The notes under the pieces: model-generated
What the model was told of the DNA's origin: nothing
Seen by the model: the letters and a program-made list of their open reading frames with translations, nothing else
The model's database searches: none
Made by a program: the position numbers and the translations under genes
In this document: piece after piece, positions 2,824 through 26,459 of the stretch
Position numbering within the stretch: position 1 is the stretch's first letter
Layout: each line of letters opens with the position of its first letter
Source: Micromonospora sediminimaris
GTDB lineage: Bacteria; Actinomycetota; Actinomycetes; Mycobacteriales; Micromonosporaceae
Direction: 5' to 3'
NCBI GenBank assembly: GCA_900112325.1
Contig: FOLJ01000007.1
Location: 124,001-188,000 of the forward strand
DNA: 64,000 bases

Positions 2824-2884
2824 GTTGATCAAGAAGTTTTGGTCGGGATCCGCGGCGAACTCCGACCAAAACTTCTTGATCAAC
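2824..2884. repeat. Palindromic repeat 2 (23-bp perfect arms)
   Basis: The left arm 2824-2846 begins GTTGATCAAGAAGTTTTGG and is exactly complementary to 2862-2884, with a 15-nt loop. It is almost identical to the repeat at 57785. The right arm carries the TGA stop (2880-2882, minus strand) of the small gene at 3179. It lies between two minus-strand genes and probably terminates the upstream one. Confidence 0.9.
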
Positions 2885-3179
2885 GCGGGCCGGGGTGGGG
2901 ACGCGGGCCGGGGTGGGGACGCGGGCCGGGGTGGGGACGCGGGTCGGGGTGGGGGTGGGGGCGGGGGGTTAGTTCGCGCCAGGTGTCGGTGCCTTGGAGT
3001 AGGGCGCGGATGGTGTCCTCGGCCGCGTCGACGGTGTCGTACTCGTAGAACCGGGAGACGCCCTCGGCGCCACCGGCGCGCTGCTCGACGAACCATCGGT
3101 CGGCATCCGCCCGGAGGAAGACGTCCCGCCGGGCCAGTCGCCCCCATTTCCCGTTCCACCAGTGCTTTCGCTGCTCCAT
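2880..3179 (-). CDS. Small hypothetical protein behind a LexA-type box
   Basis: 99 residues and no family I recognise. The first 70 or so residues look like a compact domain (N-terminal MEQRKHWWNGKWGRLARRDV, then FLRADADRWFVEQR and YEYDTVDAAEDTIRALLQ), rich in Trp and Arg. The rest is a PRPHPG repeat tail encoded by the 18-bp tandem repeat, ending at a TGA supplied by palindrome 2. The tail may therefore be a recent extension. The ATG at 3179 lies 7 nt after a TAGAGT -10 (minus strand, 3191-3186), so the mRNA is probably leaderless. A perfect actinobacterial SOS box fills the promoter spacer, suggesting DNA-damage induction. Function unknown. Confidence 0.7.
   Translation of the reverse strand: MEQRKHWWNGKWGRLARRDVFLRADADRWFVEQRAGGAEGVSRFYEYDTVDAAEDTIRALLQGTDTWRELTPRPHPHPDPRPHPGPRPHPGPRPHPGPR
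2886..2945. repeat. 18-bp G-rich tandem repeat
   Basis: Three near-exact copies of GGGCCGGGGTGGGGACGC followed by a degenerate fourth. On the minus strand each unit encodes Pro-His-Pro-Gly-Pro-Arg, forming the C-terminal tail of the small gene at 3179. It is G-run rich and could form quadruplex-like structure. It abuts the palindrome at 2824-2884. Confidence 0.85.
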
Positions 3180-3191
3180 GGCGGGACTCTA

Positions 3192-3207
3192 TCGAACATC
3201 TGTTCGA
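3192..3207. promoter_or_regulatory. LexA (SOS) box, perfect match
   Basis: TCGAACATCTGTTCGA is a perfect match to the actinobacterial LexA consensus TCGAAC-N4-GTTCGA. It fills the spacer of the promoter for the minus-strand gene at 3179 (-10 TAGAGT at 3191-3186, -35-like ACTTGT just outside the box), so LexA bound here would block RNA polymerase. The match is seen directly; SOS control is inferred. Confidence 0.75.
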
Positions 3208-16077: not shown

Positions 16078-16170
16078 GCTCGCGGGATGCGGGATGTCGG
16101 GCTTTCCTGCCTCCAGGAAGCCGCGAGATGCCGCATCCCGCGAGCTGACCCGGCTGGCCAGCCGGGTCAG
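16078..16170. terminator. Double palindrome between convergent genes
   Basis: GCTCGCGGGATGCGG (16078-16092) pairs perfectly with 16131-16145, enclosing a smaller hairpin. Immediately after it, CTGACCCGGCTGG (16145-16157) is exactly complementary to 16158-16170 with no loop, a 26-bp perfect palindrome. The second palindrome contains the stop codon of the minus-strand peptidase. Together they can end transcription from both sides. The sequences are unrelated to the GATC-type repeat family. Confidence 0.85.
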
Positions 16171-18263
16171 GCGCGGCCGAAGCGGTCCAGGGTCCAGGCG
16201 TTTATGAACGCCTCCTCCCGCCAGGCGTCGTAACGCCCGCTCGGCCCGCCGTGACCCGCCTCCATCTCGGTCTTGAGCAGGTAGTCACCCTGCGGCGCGA
16301 CCGCCCGCAGCCGCGCGATCCACTTCGCCGGCTCGTGGTAGAGCACCCGCGTGTCGTTGAGGCTGGTCATCGCCAGGATCGCCGGGTAGTCCAGGGCGGC
16401 GACGTTCTCGTACGGGGTGTACGACTTCATGTACGCGTACACCTCGGGGTCCGCCAGCGGGTTGCCCCACTCCTCCCACTCGGTGACGGTGAGCGGCAGC
16501 GACGGGTCCAGGATCGTGTTGAGCGCGTCCACGAACGGCACCTGCGCGACGATGCCGGCGAAGGCGTCCGGGGCCAGGTTGGCCACCGCGCCCATCAGCA
16601 ACCCGCCGGCCGAACCACCCCGGGCGACCAGCCGGTCCGGTGCCGTCCAGCCCGCCTTCGCCAGGTGTCGGGCACAGGCCACGAAGTCGGTGAAGGTGTT
16701 CTTCTTGGCGAGCATCTTGCCGTGGTCGTACCACCGGCGACCCAACTCGCCACCGCCCCGGATGTGCGCCACCGCGAAGATCACCCCACGGTCCAACAGG
16801 GACAGTCGGCCGACCGAGAACCACGGGTCCATGCTCGCCTCGTACGAGCCGTAGCCGTAGATGACGCAGGGCGCCGAGCCGTCCCGGGGGGTGCCCCGCC
16901 GGTACACCAGGGAGATCGGCACCTTGGTGCCGTCGTCGGCCAGCGCCCAGTCGCGCTGCTGCTCGTAGTCCTCCGGCCGGTACACCTGACCGTCCGGCCC
17001 GGGCAGCACCGGCCGTTGGCGCAGCAGCGTCATCTCCCGGGTGACGAGGTCGTAGTCGTACACCGAGTCGGGCGTGACAAGCGAGGTGTAGCGCAGCCGC
17101 AGCCGGCCGGTGCGGTACTCGGGGTTGGCGTCCAGGCCGACGGTGTGCAGTGGCTCCGGGAACTCGATGTCGTGGGCGTCACCGCCGCCGACGGGCAGGA
17201 CCCGCAGCCCGGTCAGGCCGTTGCTGCGTACCGTGACGACCAGGTGGTCGGCGAAGGCGTCGACCGACTCCAGCCGGGTGCCCGGCGAGTGCTCGATCAA
17301 CGGCACCCAGTCGCCCGGGGCGTCGGCCGAGGTGTACGCGAGGGCGAAATCCTCGGCATCGTCGTTGTGCAGGATCAGGAACCGGTGGCCGTGGTGCTCC
17401 ACCGAGTACTCGACCCCCTGCCGGCGGGGTGCGATCACCGCCGGCTCGCCCGTCGGGTTGCCGGCCGGGATCACCCGTACCTCGCTGGTGAGCTTGCTGG
17501 CGATGTCGATGAGGACGAACCGCTCCGAGCGGGTCAGCTCGACACCGACCCAGAACCGCTCGTCGTCCTCGGTGTGCACCACCACGTCCTCGGTGGTGGC
17601 GGTGCCGATGACGTGTCGCCAGACCCGGTTGGGTCGCCACGCCTCGTCAACGGTCACGTAGAACAGCACCGAGGCGTCGCCGGACCACGCGGTGCCGTAG
17701 AAGGTGCCGGGAATCTCGTCGGGGAGCAGCTCACCGGTGCTGAGGTCCTTCACCCGCAGGGTGAACCGCTCGTCACCGGAGAAGTCGGTGGAGTAGGCCA
17801 GGTAGCGCCCATCGGGGCTGACGTCGAAGGCGCCGAGCGAGAAGAAGTCGTGCCCCTTGGCCAACTCGTTGCCGTCCAGCAGGATCTGCTCCCCGTCGAG
17901 CGGGGCGCCATCGGTGCTGATCGGCGGGGTGGTCTCGTCGGGGCGGACCGCCCGACGGCAGTGCACGCCGTACTGCTGGCCCTCGACGGTGCGGGTGTAG
18001 TACCAGTGCTGGCCCTTGCGGGTCGGCACGGACAGGTCGGTCTCCTGGGTACGCCGCCGGATCTCCTCGAACAATGTCGTACGCAGCCCGGACAGGTGCG
18101 CCGTCCGGGCCTCGGTCCAGGCGTTCTCGGCGTTCAGATAGTTGATCGTTTCCGGATCGTCCTTGGTGGCGAGCCAGGCGTACTCGTCGACGACGGTGTC
18201 GCCGTGGTGGACACGTTCGGTCGGCACCCGCCTGGCCGCGGGAACGGGGGTCTCGGTGGTCAC
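16167..18263 (-). CDS. ptrB: S9 family prolyl oligopeptidase (oligopeptidase B-like)
   Basis: 698 residues, the usual size. A seven-bladed propeller gates an alpha/beta-hydrolase domain; such enzymes cleave oligopeptides, usually after basic residues, in the cytoplasm. Catalytic triad: Ser551 in GGSAGG, Asp637 in SLNDTRV and His671 in EAGHGGPSGR. The IYGYGSYEASMDPWFS and AHIRGGGELGRRWYDHGK segments are typical of PtrB. The GTG start at 18263 lies 6 nt after TAACGT (minus strand, 18275-18270), suggesting a leaderless transcript. A LexA-like box lies 59-74 nt upstream, nearer the divergent gene. Confidence 0.94.
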   Translation of the reverse strand: MTTETPVPAARRVPTERVHHGDTVVDEYAWLATKDDPETINYLNAENAWTEARTAHLSGLRTTLFEEIRRRTQETDLSVPTRKGQHWYYTRTVEGQQYGVHCRRAVRPDETTPPISTDGAPLDGEQILLDGNELAKGHDFFSLGAFDVSPDGRYLAYSTDFSGDERFTLRVKDLSTGELLPDEIPGTFYGTAWSGDASVLFYVTVDEAWRPNRVWRHVIGTATTEDVVVHTEDDERFWVGVELTRSERFVLIDIASKLTSEVRVIPAGNPTGEPAVIAPRRQGVEYSVEHHGHRFLILHNDDAEDFALAYTSADAPGDWVPLIEHSPGTRLESVDAFADHLVVTVRSNGLTGLRVLPVGGGDAHDIEFPEPLHTVGLDANPEYRTGRLRLRYTSLVTPDSVYDYDLVTREMTLLRQRPVLPGPDGQVYRPEDYEQQRDWALADDGTKVPISLVYRRGTPRDGSAPCVIYGYGSYEASMDPWFSVGRLSLLDRGVIFAVAHIRGGGELGRRWYDHGKMLAKKNTFTDFVACARHLAKAGWTAPDRLVARGGSAGGLLMGAVANLAPDAFAGIVAQVPFVDALNTILDPSLPLTVTEWEEWGNPLADPEVYAYMKSYTPYENVAALDYPAILAMTSLNDTRVLYHEPAKWIARLRAVAPQGDYLLKTEMEAGHGGPSGRYDAWREEAFINAWTLDRFGRA

Positions 18264-18321: not shown

Positions 18322-18337
18322 TCGAACACATGTACGA
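18322..18337. promoter_or_regulatory. LexA-like box overlapping the -10 of the FAD oxidoreductase gene
   Basis: TCGAACACATGTACGA differs from the actinobacterial SOS consensus TCGAAC-N4-GTTCGA by one base. It overlaps TACGAT (18333-18338), which sits 7 nt before the ATG at 18346 and would give a leaderless mRNA. A protein bound here would block that promoter. Control of the divergent peptidase is possible but its own -10 is 47 nt away. Confidence 0.55.
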
Positions 18338-18345
18338 TCGCCGGC

Positions 18346-19692
18346 ATGGTGCCACCCCCTTCCGCCGGTACGTCCGGTGTCCGCGACATCACCCGCCGAC
18401 TGAGCGAGATCTGCGGTCCGCGCTTCGCGCGCCGCGCCGGTCCCGCCGACGAGGTGGCCGGGAGCACGGCCCGCTGGGTGGCGGTGCCCGGTGGTCCGCA
18501 CGCGGCTGCGCAGGTGTTGCGACTGGCCGCCCGGCACGACCTGAGCGTGGTGCCCCGAGGGGCCGGCACCAAGATCGACTGGGGTGCGCCGCCCGAACGG
18601 GTCGACATCATGCTCGACACCGGGAGACTGGCCGGCATCGGCCACCAGTCGCCGGACCGGGGCACTGCCGAGATCGGCGCCGGTACGCCGCTGCGTGCGG
18701 TACAGGCCGCCCTGGAGCGCACCGGCCGGCGGCTCGCGTTGGACGCTCCCTCACCCGGTGCCACGCTCGGCGGAGTGCTGGCGGCGGACGAGGCCGGTCC
18801 GTTGCGTCACCGACACGGCACCGCCTGCGATCAGCTCGTCGGCCTGCGTTACCTGGCTGCCGACGGTGAGCTGGCCGAGGCGGGCGGCGGGGCGGCCGGG
18901 CTGGCCGAGGCGCGACTGCTGTGCGGTTCGGAGGGAGCACTCGGCGTGCTGGTCAGCGCGACGCTGCGGGTGCAGGCGGTGCCGGCCGCCCGGGTCTGGG
19001 TGACCCGGCCGGTGTGGACCCCGCTGGAGGTGCACGACCTGATCCGGGCGGTGCTCGCGGCCCGGCTCGACCCGGCCGCGATCGAGCTCGATCTGCCGGT
19101 CGGCACCGGCTGTCGCCCACGACGGGACCGCCGTGCCGAGTCGATGGCACTGCACCCGTCGATGACCGGGCGCGCGTCGACCGGCCCGGCGGGCACCGGT
19201 TCGCTTGTGGTGCTCCTGGAGGGCGGCCCCGCGGAGGTGGCGGAGCGCACCGACCGGTTGATCGGTCTCTTCGGCTCCAGCACCGTGGTCGCCCGGACGG
19301 CGCCACCGTGGTGGCGCAGCTACCCCTTCGCCCCCGGCGACACGGCCTTGCGGCTGGAGGTGCCGATGACCGATCTGCACGCCGCCGTCTACGCCCTGCG
19401 CGACGCGGCCGGTGGGCCGGTGCCGGTACGCGGCTCGGCCGGGCTCGGCGTGGTGCACGCCGCCCTGCCCGGGGCGATGGCACCGAGCCGGGTCGCGTCG
19501 ATCCTGGCCGCGGTGCGTGGCGTGCTGCTCGCCCGACAGGGCCGGTGCGTGGTGCTCGCCGCCCCGCCGGCCGTCCGCCGTACCGTCGACCTGTGGGGCG
19601 AGCGGGCCGATCTGGCCCACCTACGCGCCGTCAAGCAGCACCTGGACCCGACCCACCGCCTCGCCCCCGGCCGCCTCCCCGGCGGCCTCTGA
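18346..19692 (+). CDS. FAD-binding oxidoreductase, GlcE-like
   Basis: 448 residues. The N-terminal PCMH-type FAD domain includes VAVPGGPHAAAQVLRLAARH, VVPRGAGTKIDWG, IGAGTPLRAVQ and SPGATLGGVLAADEAGPLRH. The C-terminal half is degenerate compared with full glycolate oxidase GlcD but close in size to GlcE, ending DLAHLRAVKQHLDPTHRLAPG. No GlcD or GlcF gene is nearby, so it may act alone or with distant partners; the substrate is unknown. ATG 18346 fits the leaderless promoter, and the LexA-like box suggests damage control, which would be unusual for this family. Confidence 0.82.
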   Translation: MVPPPSAGTSGVRDITRRLSEICGPRFARRAGPADEVAGSTARWVAVPGGPHAAAQVLRLAARHDLSVVPRGAGTKIDWGAPPERVDIMLDTGRLAGIGHQSPDRGTAEIGAGTPLRAVQAALERTGRRLALDAPSPGATLGGVLAADEAGPLRHRHGTACDQLVGLRYLAADGELAEAGGGAAGLAEARLLCGSEGALGVLVSATLRVQAVPAARVWVTRPVWTPLEVHDLIRAVLAARLDPAAIELDLPVGTGCRPRRDRRAESMALHPSMTGRASTGPAGTGSLVVLLEGGPAEVAERTDRLIGLFGSSTVVARTAPPWWRSYPFAPGDTALRLEVPMTDLHAAVYALRDAAGGPVPVRGSAGLGVVHAALPGAMAPSRVASILAAVRGVLLARQGRCVVLAAPPAVRRTVDLWGERADLAHLRAVKQHLDPTHRLAPGRLPGGL

Positions 19693-19861: not shown

Positions 19862-21934
19862 TTAGGCGGCGTCGTTGCGGAGGACGAGGATGGCGATGTC
19901 GTCGCGGGGCTCCTCGACCGAGAAGTTGATCGCGGTGGAGCGTAACCGGGCCGCCACCACGTCCGCCGAGTAACCGGCCAGCGGCGCGGCGGCGTCGCGC
20001 AGCCGCCCGGTGCCGAACAGTTCCCGGCCCCGGCGACGCTCGGTCACCCCGTCGGTGTAGAAGACCAGGCAGTCACCCGGGGCGAGGGCGAGTTGCGCGG
20101 TGGGGGAGGCGATCGTGTCGAGCAGCCCGAGTGCGGTACCACCGGTGCCGACGAAGGCGGCCGGGCCGCCGCTGGATCGCAGCAGCACCGGCCGGTCGTG
20201 CCCAGCCAGGTGCAGCCCGACGTCGAGCCGGTCGCCCTCACCCGGCCCGACCGCCGCCAACGCCAGCGTGCAGTAGCGGCCGGCACCCCGATCCACAAGC
20301 GTCTCGTTGAGCCGGGCCAGCACCTCGGGCAGCGGCTTGCCGTCGCCGGCCAGCACCCGGATGACGTCCCGCACCAGCCCGGTGACCGCCGCCGCCTGCA
20401 CTCCCTTGCCGGAGACGTCGCCGATCACCACCAGCCAGCGCCCGTCCGGCAGCGGCACCACGTCGTAGAAGTCGCCGCCGACGTCGACGTCCCCGCCGGT
20501 CGGCACGTACTCGGCGGCGAAGCCGATGCCCTCCACCACCGGCAGGACCGGCGGCAGCAACGACTGTTGCAGGGTCTGGGCCACCCGGCGGCGCTCGGCA
20601 TGGATGCGGGCGTTCTCGATGGCGAGGGCGGCCCGTCGGGCCACGTCCTCCAGCACCGCGATCTCGTCCGGATCCTGCCGGTGCCGCTGGTGCCGTCCGA
20701 CGGCCAGGGTGCCGAGGCGCTGCCCTCGGGCGATCAACGGTACGGCGAAGCCCTCCATCGGCGCGCCGAGCGGGGTCCGGGTGCCGTTGCGGCTGGCCTC
20801 CCGTAGCCGAGCCAAAATGGAATCAGGGCCGGCCTCGCGGAGCGTGGCGTGCAGCTGCGGCAGCACCGACTCGTCGGCGTGGCTGGCCGCCGCGAGCCGG
20901 AGCCGGCCCCACTCGTCGGTGGTGTGCACCGCGCACCACTGGCCGAGCCGGGGCACCACCAGCTGCGGGATGAGTGCCATGGTCAGTTCCACGTCCAGCG
21001 ACTGGGCGAGCAGCTCGCTGGCCTCGGCGAGGAAGGTCAGCCAGGCCTGCCGGCGTACGTCCGCGCGGCGCAGCCGGTCGTTCTCCAGGTGCAGCGAGAG
21101 CCGCTCGGCGGTCAGCACCGCCAGCGGCTGGGCGTACGCGGTGGGCGCGGCGTCCAGTTCCAGCTCACCGGCGTACGGGCGGTGCACGGCCAGCGGCACC
21201 CGGAGCAGGTCGTTACCGGCCCGGGGCTGGCGGCCGTACCGGGCGAGGACCTGGGCGCCCTGGCCGTCGCCGCGGTCCAGCCGGACCACCCCGCCGGCGG
21301 CGCCGACCATCTCCGCCACCCGGGTCAGCAGGCCGGCGGCGAAGTCCGGCAGCGGATCCTCGGCGTACGGGTCGGGGGTGGTCTGCATCAGCGCGTTCAT
21401 CGCACCGGGGCTGGGCACGGCGGTCTGTCCGGCGCTGTCCGGTTGGGCGGCGCTCGCCGGTGGCGCGGGTGTGGCCGGTCCCTTGCCCTTCCGATCGGAC
21501 CGGTCCAGCCGGAACCACACGCCCTTGCCGGTGCGCAGGTAGGTGGTGCCCCAGCGGCTGGCGAAGTGGTCGACCAGCAGCAGCCCACGCCCCCGTTCGG
21601 CGACCTCGGCGATGTCGGTCGCCTGGTTGCGTACGCCGACGGTCAGCTCGTCGACCGGGCCGGCGGCGAAGTCGGAGACCGTGACGGTCAGCCCCGCCTG
21701 GTCGGCGGTGACCTCGATGTCCAGTTCGGTGCGGGCGTGCTCGACCGCGTTCGTGGACAGCTCGGTGGTCAACAGAAGTGCCTCGTTGAGCAGTTCGTCC
21801 AGGTCCGCCTCCGCGAGCACGGACCGGACGACCGCGCGCGCGGCGGCCGGTGTACGGCGGTCGGCGGGAAGCCGGACGCGCCGCGCGTGCTCGTCTGGGC
21901 CCGTCTTCGCCGCGGGCCCCGCCTCCGCTGACAC
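19862..21934 (-). CDS. ATPase-GAF-SpoIIE protein phosphatase
   Basis: 690 residues in three parts. Residues 15-150 are an RsbW-like GHKL ATPase (LLLTTELSTNAVEHART N-box, ERGRGLLLVDHFASRW). Residues about 215-430 include two GAF-like regions. The C-terminal 240 residues are an RsbU/SpoIIE PP2C domain (LQQSLLPPVLPVVEGIGFAA, VGGDFYDVVPLPDGRW, IGDVSGKGVQAAAVTG, FYTDGVTERR, DDIAILVLRN). Such proteins combine anti-sigma kinase and phosphatase in one chain. The frame stays open far upstream, antisense to the hybrid kinase. I chose GTG 21934 for its GGAGG; 21949 and 21955 are alternatives. It is divergent from the HAMP-array kinase. Confidence 0.88.
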   Translation of the reverse strand: MSAEAGPAAKTGPDEHARRVRLPADRRTPAAARAVVRSVLAEADLDELLNEALLLTTELSTNAVEHARTELDIEVTADQAGLTVTVSDFAAGPVDELTVGVRNQATDIAEVAERGRGLLLVDHFASRWGTTYLRTGKGVWFRLDRSDRKGKGPATPAPPASAAQPDSAGQTAVPSPGAMNALMQTTPDPYAEDPLPDFAAGLLTRVAEMVGAAGGVVRLDRGDGQGAQVLARYGRQPRAGNDLLRVPLAVHRPYAGELELDAAPTAYAQPLAVLTAERLSLHLENDRLRRADVRRQAWLTFLAEASELLAQSLDVELTMALIPQLVVPRLGQWCAVHTTDEWGRLRLAAASHADESVLPQLHATLREAGPDSILARLREASRNGTRTPLGAPMEGFAVPLIARGQRLGTLAVGRHQRHRQDPDEIAVLEDVARRAALAIENARIHAERRRVAQTLQQSLLPPVLPVVEGIGFAAEYVPTGGDVDVGGDFYDVVPLPDGRWLVVIGDVSGKGVQAAAVTGLVRDVIRVLAGDGKPLPEVLARLNETLVDRGAGRYCTLALAAVGPGEGDRLDVGLHLAGHDRPVLLRSSGGPAAFVGTGGTALGLLDTIASPTAQLALAPGDCLVFYTDGVTERRRGRELFGTGRLRDAAAPLAGYSADVVAARLRSTAINFSVEEPRDDIAILVLRNDAA

Positions 21935-22085
21935 CCTCGTATCCTCCACCGACACCTCTGAAGTGCCAAGCCGATCACCACCGGGGCTTTGCCGTCGGAC
22001 CGTGCCGTGCCGTGGCGTTTTCGAGGTCACGGGGACAATGATGGGGTGGCCGGTGGGAGCCGGTGTACCCCGAGGTGAGCGAGGA

Positions 22086-25000
22086 ATGATGACCACGGCG
22101 AAACAGTCGGTGACCGCGGAGACCTCCGCCGCCGACCACGAGGCGGTCCTCACCGAGCTGGCGGAGGCGCTACGGCGGGTCCGTGGCGGTGATCTCAAGG
22201 TGCGGTTGCCCCGGCGTTCGGGCGCGGCCGGTGAGGTGGCGGACGCCTTCAACGACGTGGTGTCGCTCCAGGAGCGGCAGCACCTGGATCTGCGCCGGAT
22301 CAGTCGGGTCGTGGGCCGCGACGGCCGGCTGACCGAGCGGCTGGACGAGGAAGGGCTGGACGGCTCCTGGGCGGAGGGGCAGCGGGCGGTCAACTCGCTG
22401 ATCGACGACCTGGGTCGACCCACCACCGAGATCGCCCGGGTCATCGTGGCGGTCGCCGACGGTGACCTCACCCAGCACATGGCGCTGGAGATCGACGGCC
22501 GCCCGCTGCGGGGTGAGTACCTGCGGATCGGTCGGACGGTCAACACCATGGTCGACCAGCTCTCGTCCTTCTCCAACGAGGTGACCCGGGTGGCCCGGGA
22601 GGTGGGCACCGAGGGCAAGCTGGGCGGCCAGGCCGACGTCCGCGGCGTCGCCGGCACCTGGAAGGACCTCACCGACTCGGTGAACACCATGGCGTCGAAC
22701 CTGACCGGCCAGGTCCGGTCGATCTCCCAGGTGGCGACCGCGGTGGCCAAGGGTGACCTCTCGCAGAAGATCACCGTCAGCGCGCGCGGCGAGGTCGCCG
22801 AGCTGGCCGACACGATGAATTCGCTCACCGACACGCTGCGCCTCTTCGCCGAGCAGGTGACGCGGGTGGCCCGGGAGGTGGGTACCGAGGGCAAGCTGGG
22901 CGGTCAGGCGGAGGTGCCGGGCGTAGCGGGCACCTGGAAGGACCTGACCGACAGCGTCAACTCGATGGCGTCGAACCTGACCGCCCAGGTGCGGAACATC
23001 GCTCAGGTCTCCACGGCTGTGGCCCGGGGTGACCTGTCGCAGAAGATCACCGTGGCCGCGCAGGGCGAGATCCTGGAACTCAAGGACACCGTCAACACGA
23101 TGGTGGACCAGTTGTCGTCGTTCGCCGACGAGGTGACGCGGGTGGCCCGTGAGGTGGGTACCGAGGGCAAGCTGGGCGGTCAGGCCCAGGTGCGCGGCGT
23201 CTCCGGCACCTGGCGTGACCTCACTGAGAACGTCAACCAGCTCGCCGGGAACCTGACCAGCCAGGTCCGCAACATCTCCCAGGTCTCCACGGCCGTCGCC
23301 AAGGGTGACCTGAGCCAGAAGATCACGGTCGACGCCCGGGGCGAGATCCTGGAGCTGAAGAACACCGTCAACACGATGGTGGACCAGTTGTCGTCGTTCG
23401 CCGACGAGGTGACCCGGGTGGCCCGTGAGGTGGGTACCGAGGGCAAGCTGGGCGGTCAGGCTCAGGTCAAGGGCGTCAGCGGTACGTGGCGGGACCTGAC
23501 CGACAACGTGAACTCGATGGCGTCGAACCTGACCAGCCAGGTACGGAACATCGCCTCGGTCACCACGGCGGTGGCGCGGGGCGACCTGTCGCAGAAGATC
23601 ACGGTGGATGCCCGGGGCGAGATCCTGGAGCTGAAGTCGACGGTGAACACGATGGTCGATCAGCTGTCGTCGTTCGCCGACGAGGTGACGCGGGTGGCCC
23701 GTGAGGTGGGCACCGAGGGCAACCTCGGCGGTCAGGCTCAGGTCAAGGGCGTCAGCGGCACCTGGCGGGATCTGACCGACAACGTGAACTCGATGGCGTC
23801 GAACCTGACCGCCCAGGTACGGAACATCGCCCAGGTCTCCACGGCGGTCGCCAAGGGTGACCTGAGCCAGAAGATCACGGTGGATGCCCGGGGCGAGATC
23901 CTGGAGCTGAAGTCGACGGTGAACACGATGGTGGATCAGCTGTCGTCGTTCGCCGACGAGGTGACGCGGGTGGCCCGTGAGGTGGGTACCGAGGGCAAGC
24001 TGGGCGGCCAGGCCCAGGTGCGCGGCGTTGCCGGCACCTGGCGGGATCTGACCGACAACGTGAACTCGATGGCGTCGAACCTGACCAGCCAGGTCCGCAA
24101 CATCGCCTCGGTCACCACCGCGGTGGCCAACGGTGACCTGTCGCAGAAGATCACGGTCGACGCGCAGGGCGAGATCCTGGAGCTGAAGAACACGGTCAAC
24201 ACGATGGTGGACCAGTTGTCGTCGTTCGCCGACGAGGTGACCCGGGTGGCCCGTGAGGTGGGTACCGAGGGCAAGCTGGGCGGTCAGGCTCAGGTCAAGG
24301 GCGTCAGCGGCACCTGGCGGGACCTCACCGAGAACGTCAACCAGCTCGCCTCGACGCTCACCACCCAGCTACGCGCGATCGCCCGCGTCTCGACCTCGGT
24401 GACCCGGGGCGACCTCACCCAGCGGATCGCGGTGAAGGCGCAGGGCGAGGTCGCCGAGCTGAAGGACAACATCAACCAGATGATCGTCACCCTGCGGGAG
24501 ACGACCCACAAGAACGCCGAGCAGGGGTGGCTCGACTCCAACCTCGCCCGCATCGGCGGCCTGCTCCAGGGCCAGCGTGATCTCGGCGAGGTCTGCCGGA
24601 TGATCATGCAGGAGGTCACTCCGCTTGTCGACGCGCAGCTGGGTGCCTTCTTCCTCGTGGACAACTCCGAGGGCGTGATGCGGCTGCGGTTGACCGCCTC
24701 GTACGGCTACGTCTCCCGGGGGCACGACGTGACCTTCGGGCCGGGCGAGGGGCTGGTCGGCCAGGCCGCCCTGTCCCGGCGCACCATCCGGGTCGGAGCC
24801 GTACCGGACGGCCGGATCACCCTGCGGTCCGGGTTGGCCGACACGCCACCGGCCGACCTGGTCGTCCTGCCGGTCCTCTTCGAGGGCGAACTGCTCGGCG
24901 TGATCGAGTTCGCCACCGTCACACCCTTCTCCGAGCTGCACCTGTCGTTCCTGGAACGGCTGGTCTCCACCATCGGCATCGCGGTCAACACCATTCAGGC

Positions 25001-26459
25001 GAACCGGCGTACGGAGGAACTGCTCGCGCAGTCGCAGCGGCTGGCACACGAGTTGCAGGAGCAGTCGGCGGAGTTGCAGCGGACCAACGCCGAACTTGAG
25101 GACAAGGCCAAACTGCTGTCGGAGCAGAAGGCGAACATCGAGACCCAGAACCGGGAGATCGAACTGGCCCGGCTGGGCCTGGAGGACAAGGCGCAGCAGC
25201 TCACCCGGGCCTCGGCGTACAAGTCGGAGTTCCTGGCGAACATGAGCCACGAGCTGCGTACGCCGCTGAACTCGCTGCTGCTGCTGGCCCGGTTGCTGAT
25301 GGAGAACTCCGAGCAGAACCTCACGCCGAAGCAGATCGAGTTCGCCCGCACGATCCACGGCTCCGGGTCGGACCTGCTGCGCCTGATCGACGACATCCTG
25401 GATCTTTCCAAGATCGAGGCTGGGCGGATGGACGTCGAGCCGACCGAGGTCCGGTTCACCGAGATCTGCAACTACGTGGAACAGGCGTTCTCCCCGCAGG
25501 CCGAGGAGAAGGGCCTGGACTTCCAGGTACGCATCGGCAAGGACCTGCCGCCGGCCGTGGTGACCGACGCGCAGCGGCTTCAGCAGGTGCTGCGCAACCT
25601 GTTGTCGAACGCGGTCAAGTTCACCGACAACGGTGCGGTGACCCTGCGGATCTCCCGGGCGCCGGAGCACGCGGTGTTCGACGTACCGGCGCTGACCAAC
25701 GCCCGGCAGGTGATCGCCTTCACGGTGATCGACACCGGTATCGGGATCTCCGACGACAAGCTGTCGCTGATCTTCGAGGCGTTCCAGCAGGCGGACGGGA
25801 CGACCAGCCGCCGGTACGGCGGTACCGGGCTGGGCCTGTCGATCAGCCGTGACCTGGCCCGGCTGATCGGGGGCACGATCACGGTCGCCTCGGCACCCGG
25901 CCAGGGCTCGACGTTCACGCTCTACCTGCCCGACGTACTGGCGCCGGACGCGGTGGTGGCACCCGCGCCACCGTCACCGCAGCGGGCGGGTCTGCCGTCG
26001 TCGTTGTTGATGCCGCCGATGGAGTTGCTGTCGGAGGCGCCCGAGGCGCCGAAGACCCGCCAGCTCGACGGTGCCACCGTGCTGATCGTCGACGACGACG
26101 TGCGTAACGTCTTCGCGCTGACCAGCGCGCTCGAACTGCACGGAATGACCGTGCTGTACGCCGACAACGGCGCCGACGGGGTCCGCCTGTTGGCCGAACA
26201 CCCGGAGGTCGATATCGTCCTGATGGATGCAATGATGCCCGATCAGGACGGATACGAGACAACCCGACAGATCAGGCGTAATCACCGGTTCGCGGACCTG
26301 CCGATCGTGTTCCTGACGGCGAAGGCCATGCCGGGGGATCGTGAGTCGGCGATAGCGGCCGGAGCCAGCGACTACATCACCAAGCCGGTCGACCTGGACC
26401 AGTTGATCGAGCTGATGGGCACCTGGATCAGTGGCAGCCGTACCGAGGAGGGCTCGTGA
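22086..26459 (+). CDS. HAMP-array hybrid histidine kinase (fungal group III-like layout)
   Basis: 1457 residues, no membrane helix seen. One N-terminal HAMP is followed by seven 92-residue HAMP repeats (about 150-800), each containing [18 protein letters not shown] or a close variant and GDLSQKITV. Then come a GAF domain (about 815-970), a coiled coil, HisKA with His1055 ([10 protein letters not shown]), HATPase ([28 protein letters not shown]) and a receiver with Asp1381 (VLMDAMMPD). Fungal osmosensing Nik1/Os-1 kinases share this layout; actinobacterial relatives exist. Start ATG 22086 or 22089. Its stop overlaps the response-regulator gene (GTGA). Confidence 0.93.
22578..24310 (+). repeat. 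Seven tandem 276-bp HAMP-coding repeats
   Basis: A 276-bp unit recurs seven times in frame, marked by the GAGGTGAC...CGGGTGGCCCG(G/T)GAGGTGGG block near 22578, 22854, 23130, 23406, 23682, 23958 and 24234. Inner copies are almost identical in DNA as well as protein, including shared synonymous codons. This points to recent duplication or ongoing gene conversion rather than protein-level selection alone. Copy number may differ between strains, and short-read assemblies could collapse it. Confidence 0.9.

Follow-up and report, generated by a model that had tools for sequence, protein, structure and literature searches.

A LexA-type box precedes an orphan GlcE-like flavoprotein gene in Micromonospora and points to its probable recruitment into the SOS regulon

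In the SOS response, LexA masks promoters until it is cleaved after DNA damage, and its regulons are known mainly for genes of repair, mutagenesis and cell division. The main text of the Streptomyces venezuelae LexA study gives the LexA motif of that species as tCGAAC-N4-GNNCGa and describes a box at dnaE2-2, TCGAACGTCCGTAC, which ends in GTAC and bound LexA in SPR (PMC9380542). The words "FAD" and "oxidase" are absent from that main text, the full regulon tables being placed in the supplements, and a literature search of partial journal coverage found no GlcE or FAD gene of actinomycetes under SOS control.

Here, we analysed a LexA-type box that stands before a gene for a GlcE-like FAD-binding protein in a Micromonospora genome (Table 1). 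The window, by which we mean the whole 64-kb stretch of DNA that was analysed, had been given a preliminary description from its letters, in which the gene was proposed to encode either an unrecognised damage-response oxidase or a protein governed by a repressor related to LexA. We consider it highly likely that the gene is a LexA-repressed, damage-induced orphan paralogue of GlcE that has been recruited to the SOS regulon, and conservation of the box, which runs deep in Micromonospora and its relatives, makes a damage-response gene that has received little study very probable.

Table 1. Features of the locus, in window positions
Feature	Position	Strand	Basis or remark
LexA-type operator (SOS box) TCGAACACATGTACGA, predicted	18322..18337	+	Consensus match, weight matrix, conservation
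Predicted -10 element TACGAT	18333..18338	+	Overlaps right half-site; start-codon spacing across orthologue loci
Gene for 448-aa orphan GlcE-like FAD-binding protein (P0001)	18346..19692	+	Pfam, NCBIfam, AlphaFold, alignment, tree; probably leaderless
Prolyl oligopeptidase gene (Peptidase_S9_N + Peptidase_S9)	16167..18263	-	Divergent from FAD gene

Identity and conservation of the box

As had been claimed earlier, the box TCGAACACATGTACGA departs from the consensus TCGAACNNNNGTTCGA by a single base, and the case for a predicted LexA-type operator is even better than that claim made it. A consensus search of the window is weak evidence by itself, because 7 strand matches with up to two mismatches were found where 2.83 were expected, and as many as 7 turned up in 5 of 100 shuffles. 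With a weight matrix trained on the Micromonospora recA/lexA boxes, themselves chosen by consensus likeness, the box ranked second in the 64 kb at 25.2 bits, between a site at 3192-3207 (27.6 bits) and a third-ranked site of 14.0 bits, and among 5 million random 16-mers generated with the base composition of the window, not one scored 25.2 bits or more. Across the whole genome of the strain, 593 consensus matches per strand (up to two mismatches) compared with 205 for the reversed control, and the box-pattern sites that were inspected lay mainly without evident promoter context; a single-genome consensus search is too noisy, and the question was settled by conservation.

The orthologue set (79 loci and 30 from a family search, the window's own included) amounted to 108 loci beside the window, and the box was present by pattern in 100 of the 105 that have upstream DNA. 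Outside the pattern, L077 and L079 carry the near variant TAGCACATGTGTACGA and L082 the near variant TCGAACATATGTACGT; the last two misses (L084 and L168) represent a single operonic sequence in duplicate, with glcD directly upstream. Since the pattern was fitted to these same sites, with nine box columns fixed, the invariance of those columns is partly a matter of construction; the T flanking the box on each side lies outside the pattern and carries 1.86 bits before and 2.00 bits after the box, most upstream flank columns being below 0.8 bits. Over the 660,006 bases of the orthologue loci, the pattern gave 200 strand matches, which we read as 100 near-palindromic sites and no others. The sequence TCGAACANNTGTACGAT occurs in 53 of 61 Micromonospora genomes, usually once, and its reversed control in 0; among 30 loci fetched from this search, the FAD gene was present in 25, and the other five have the sequence ahead of a small WWNGxWGR-type gene, which is shortened in one.

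There is also a clean contrast between stand-alone and operonic homologues, for which we scored boxes as consensus positions out of 12, with a threshold of at least 10 chosen in this analysis. In 148 loci, three of which have no upstream DNA, such a box stands before 113/113 stand-alone genes and 0/32 genes preceded by glcD, L084 being counted in the latter class since its glcD lies between the peptidase and FAD genes; a lack of conservation, which the preliminary description had named as a refutation of its reading, was thus not observed. Removal of 10 duplicates left 104 of 104 orphans against 0 of 31 operonic loci, although these counts are not independent events, as the loci are related by descent even after deduplication. 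The best scores were 12 in 83, 11 in 18 and 10 in 3 of the deduplicated orphans, and 9 in 19, 8 in 11 and 7 in 1 of the operonic loci, so that the best operonic score adjoins the weakest orphans, yet 83/104 orphans reach 12.

Distant orphans have the boxes TCGAACGTATGTTCGA, TCGAACGCATGTTCGA, TCGAACATACGTTCTA and TCGAACATATGTTCTA, some with a GTTCGA or GTTCTA half, and the letter changes among them appear to be those that a LexA site allows. In five loci (L086, L160-L162 and L169), the box is reversed (TCGTACACTTGTTCGATG), and the ATG starts on its last base; there, TACACT sits within the box 6 nt before the ATG, and for this reason the palindrome seems to outlast a shift of the -10 element.

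Other LexA-type boxes were noted along the way. The top-ranked site at 3192-3207 is a perfect LexA box before a small protein gene (2880-3179, minus strand) with a WWNGxWGR motif, for which Pfam returned no family above cut-off. Of 61 Micromonospora genomes, 60 encode homologues of this protein, with up to 10 matches in a single genome, and a LexA-type box lies just upstream in 27 of 31 loci examined, the four misses matching from residue 14 or later only; these proteins are possibly an undescribed SOS small-protein family. Elsewhere in the genome, the LexA-type box TCGAACATGCGTACGA (L128, C33:10776-10791) surrounds the start codon (ATG) of a short ORF, and a gene for an ATP-dependent DNA ligase lies some 300 bp downstream. 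A perfect LexA box (L129, C27:32405-32420) lies between two divergent genes, by eye those of a dCTP deaminase-like protein and a pyridoxamine-phosphate-oxidase-type protein. A further feature of the window is a gene for a very long sensor kinase (21543-26459, plus strand), in which many near-identical repeats of ~92 aa look HAMP-like by eye and the C-terminus resembles a receiver.

The probable repressor and the predicted promoter

In 36 Micromonospora genomes searched, 30 recA and 30 lexA loci were fetched. Upstream of recA, TCGTAC-N4-GTTCGG was present in all 30 (28 of these being TCGTACACCTGTTCGG), and upstream of lexA, TCGTACAGATGTTTGA was present in all 30, with a second box in 29; the TCGTAC half-site is thus common to every recA (30/30) and every lexA (30/30) region. 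Read on the opposite strand, the present box is TCGTACATGTGTTCGA and belongs to this type as well. As this half recurs at recA and lexA and in the SPR-bound Streptomyces box, GTAC in place of GTTC is an ordinary form of the LexA half-site here. In the recA gene of this genome itself (L126, L174-L176; C25:49592-53167), the match to RecA is split into three pieces of a single 1345-aa open frame, one break falling directly after the P-loop GPESSGK; the gene probably contains two intein-like insertions.

The box lies over the predicted core promoter: it takes in TACGAT but for one of its six bases, the start codon follows this element after 7 nt, and no -35 element is obvious by eye upstream. A single box is present in 100 orthologue loci; in 85 of them an in-frame ATG or GTG follows 6-7 nt past the T of TACGAT or TACTAT, 5 have the reversed box and 10 have no start at this spacing. 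The gene is probably read from a leaderless mRNA, and the overlap and start spacing agree with the earlier proposal that the box covers the -10 of a leaderless promoter.

Several alternative rationales for these observations have to be weighed. A repressor other than LexA but with LexA-like specificity would suit the nearly fixed GTACGA half before the FAD gene in Micromonospora, and a second LexA-like protein (55-61% identity over most of the query) is encoded in 7 of 36 genomes, once with an internal stop; however, the TCGTAC half-site is also that of recA and lexA in the same genus, distant orphans show the plain TCGAAC/GTTCGA palindrome, and the present genome gave one LexA protein by TIGR00498 and one match in a LexA-like protein search. 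We regard such a repressor as quite unlikely, and the "site for a related repressor" of the preliminary description loses ground, because there is one LexA by TIGR00498 and the box type matches that of recA and lexA. Its reading as a LexA-like box of the damage response gains from the conservation, the shared half-site and the orphan-operon contrast, all of which favour a predicted role for LexA itself.

Two further explanations concern what the box is conserved for. The palindrome would be incidental if conservation reflected just a strong -10 and the start region; the overlap with TACGAT and the 6-7 nt to the start codon in 85/100 loci fit this, but conservation extends to the left half, which lies upstream of the -10, and the five reversed-box loci have their likely -10 elsewhere within the box. 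Alternatively, LexA may also, or mainly, govern the prolyl oligopeptidase gene; the box is 59-74 bp upstream of its start, and 104 of 108 orthologue loci show the divergent pair (L084 among them, with glcD in between). Against this, the spacing of the box is near-constant relative to the FAD gene start, and L084 has no box scoring at least 10 save one inside the peptidase gene. L319, which retains the box though its fetched stretch of 1.2 kb gave no peptidase match, speaks against both accounts. An incidental palindrome strikes us as very improbable and control of the peptidase as unlikely, and LexA control of the FAD gene remains the preferred reading.

The flavoprotein and its origin

The single Pfam match of P0001 is FAD_binding_4 (PF01565, 82.4 bits), and a possible kinship with the mitomycin-resistance oxidase MCRA was dropped on that account. 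The nearest NCBIfam model is GlcE, with 78.9 bits against a cut-off of 284. The AlphaFold model (pLDDT 82.2) has its best PDB matches in LDHD structures, with a TM of about 0.75 and about 20% identity; in domain and predicted fold, P0001 is a VAO-type flavoprotein, and we infer that it binds FAD. In an alignment of 19 sequences, one of them a GlcD, neither orphans nor operonic GlcE have the HAGDGNLH...GEHGVG motif of GlcD, which we take to be a metal-binding His/Glu motif. All 26 operonic proteins and 0 of the 20 orphans among the 46 rows of the tree contain the V[VI]K[ND]VAGY loop, and a C-terminal DP-x-x-R-x-x-PGR motif is common to P0001 and GlcE. Of the label "GlcE-like FAD oxidoreductase" given earlier, the FAD domain stands and the likeness to GlcE is weak; of "damage-response oxidase", the SOS part finds strong support in the sequence, but the oxidase part should not be taken for granted, since the GlcD-type metal motif and the V[VI]K[ND]VAGY loop are both absent. 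P0001 is most likely a stand-alone FAD protein that would act on a small redox compound.

The best reading of the origin of the orphan lineage is that it would descend from the GlcE subunit of a Micromonosporaceae glcDE operon. In the tree, orphans are nested inside operonic GlcE with 1-2 label changes, and the operonic L168, L321 and L322 fall in the orphans' well-supported clade; orphans may have arisen from operonic GlcE once, or a second time too. The gene order of L084 (peptidase, glcD, glcE, with no box between peptidase and glcD) may represent the older state, as seen in one metagenome-assembled sequence. In three genomes (G116, G101 and G112), an orphan coexists with a glcDE pair and is therefore no replacement for GlcE there. 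P0001 is not encoded next to glcD, its upstream neighbour being the divergent prolyl oligopeptidase; TIGR00387 found no match above cut-off in 12 genomes, all of which (12/12) have weaker GlcD-like genes.

Proposed regulation and comparison with known systems

From these comparisons we infer LexA occupancy, damage induction, a leaderless start and a small-molecule redox role. In the undamaged cell, a LexA dimer on the box would hide the -10 and block RNA polymerase; upon DNA damage, RecA filaments would trigger self-cleavage of LexA and the promoter would open, giving a leaderless mRNA and, from it, the stand-alone flavoprotein. In this lineage, the gene would have become separated from glcD, the V[VI]K[ND]VAGY loop would have been lost and the LexA box gained. 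It is conceivable, and offered tentatively, that, on one or two occasions early in the history of Micromonosporaceae, a subunit came free of its operon, lost its partner and the loop, and turned into a dedicated SOS effector. Such a flavoprotein, made upon damage, might remove or rewire a redox-active compound, of which the DNA-damaging metabolites of the family itself would be an example. To our knowledge, such an effector lies outside the known SOS functions.

That a flavoprotein gene has kept a LexA-type box across a family that produces antibiotics suggests that the damage response has a metabolic arm. The Micromonospora site type, with its TCGTAC half at recA and lexA, should aid regulon prediction in these actinomycetes, and the orphan-operon contrast provides a clear example of subunit recruitment to a stress regulon.

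To conclude, the locus resembles three described systems and departs from each. With GlcE of GlcDEF, P0001 shares the FAD_binding_4 domain, a similar length and the C-terminal DP-x-x-R-x-x-PGR motif, but it has no adjoining upstream glcD and no V[VI]K[ND]VAGY loop, and its gene carries a LexA-type box. With LDHD, D2HGDH and GlcD, it shares the predicted VAO fold (TM about 0.75 to LDHD), whereas identity is about 20% and the GlcD motif HAGDGNLH...GEHGVG is absent. As far as the main text of the S. venezuelae study describes that LexA/SOS regulon (PMC9380542), the likeness extends to the 16-bp tCGAAC-N4-GNNCGa box, the GTAC half at dnaE2-2 and the position of several boxes near the start codon, while the regulated gene at the present locus is that of a stand-alone GlcE-like flavoprotein.
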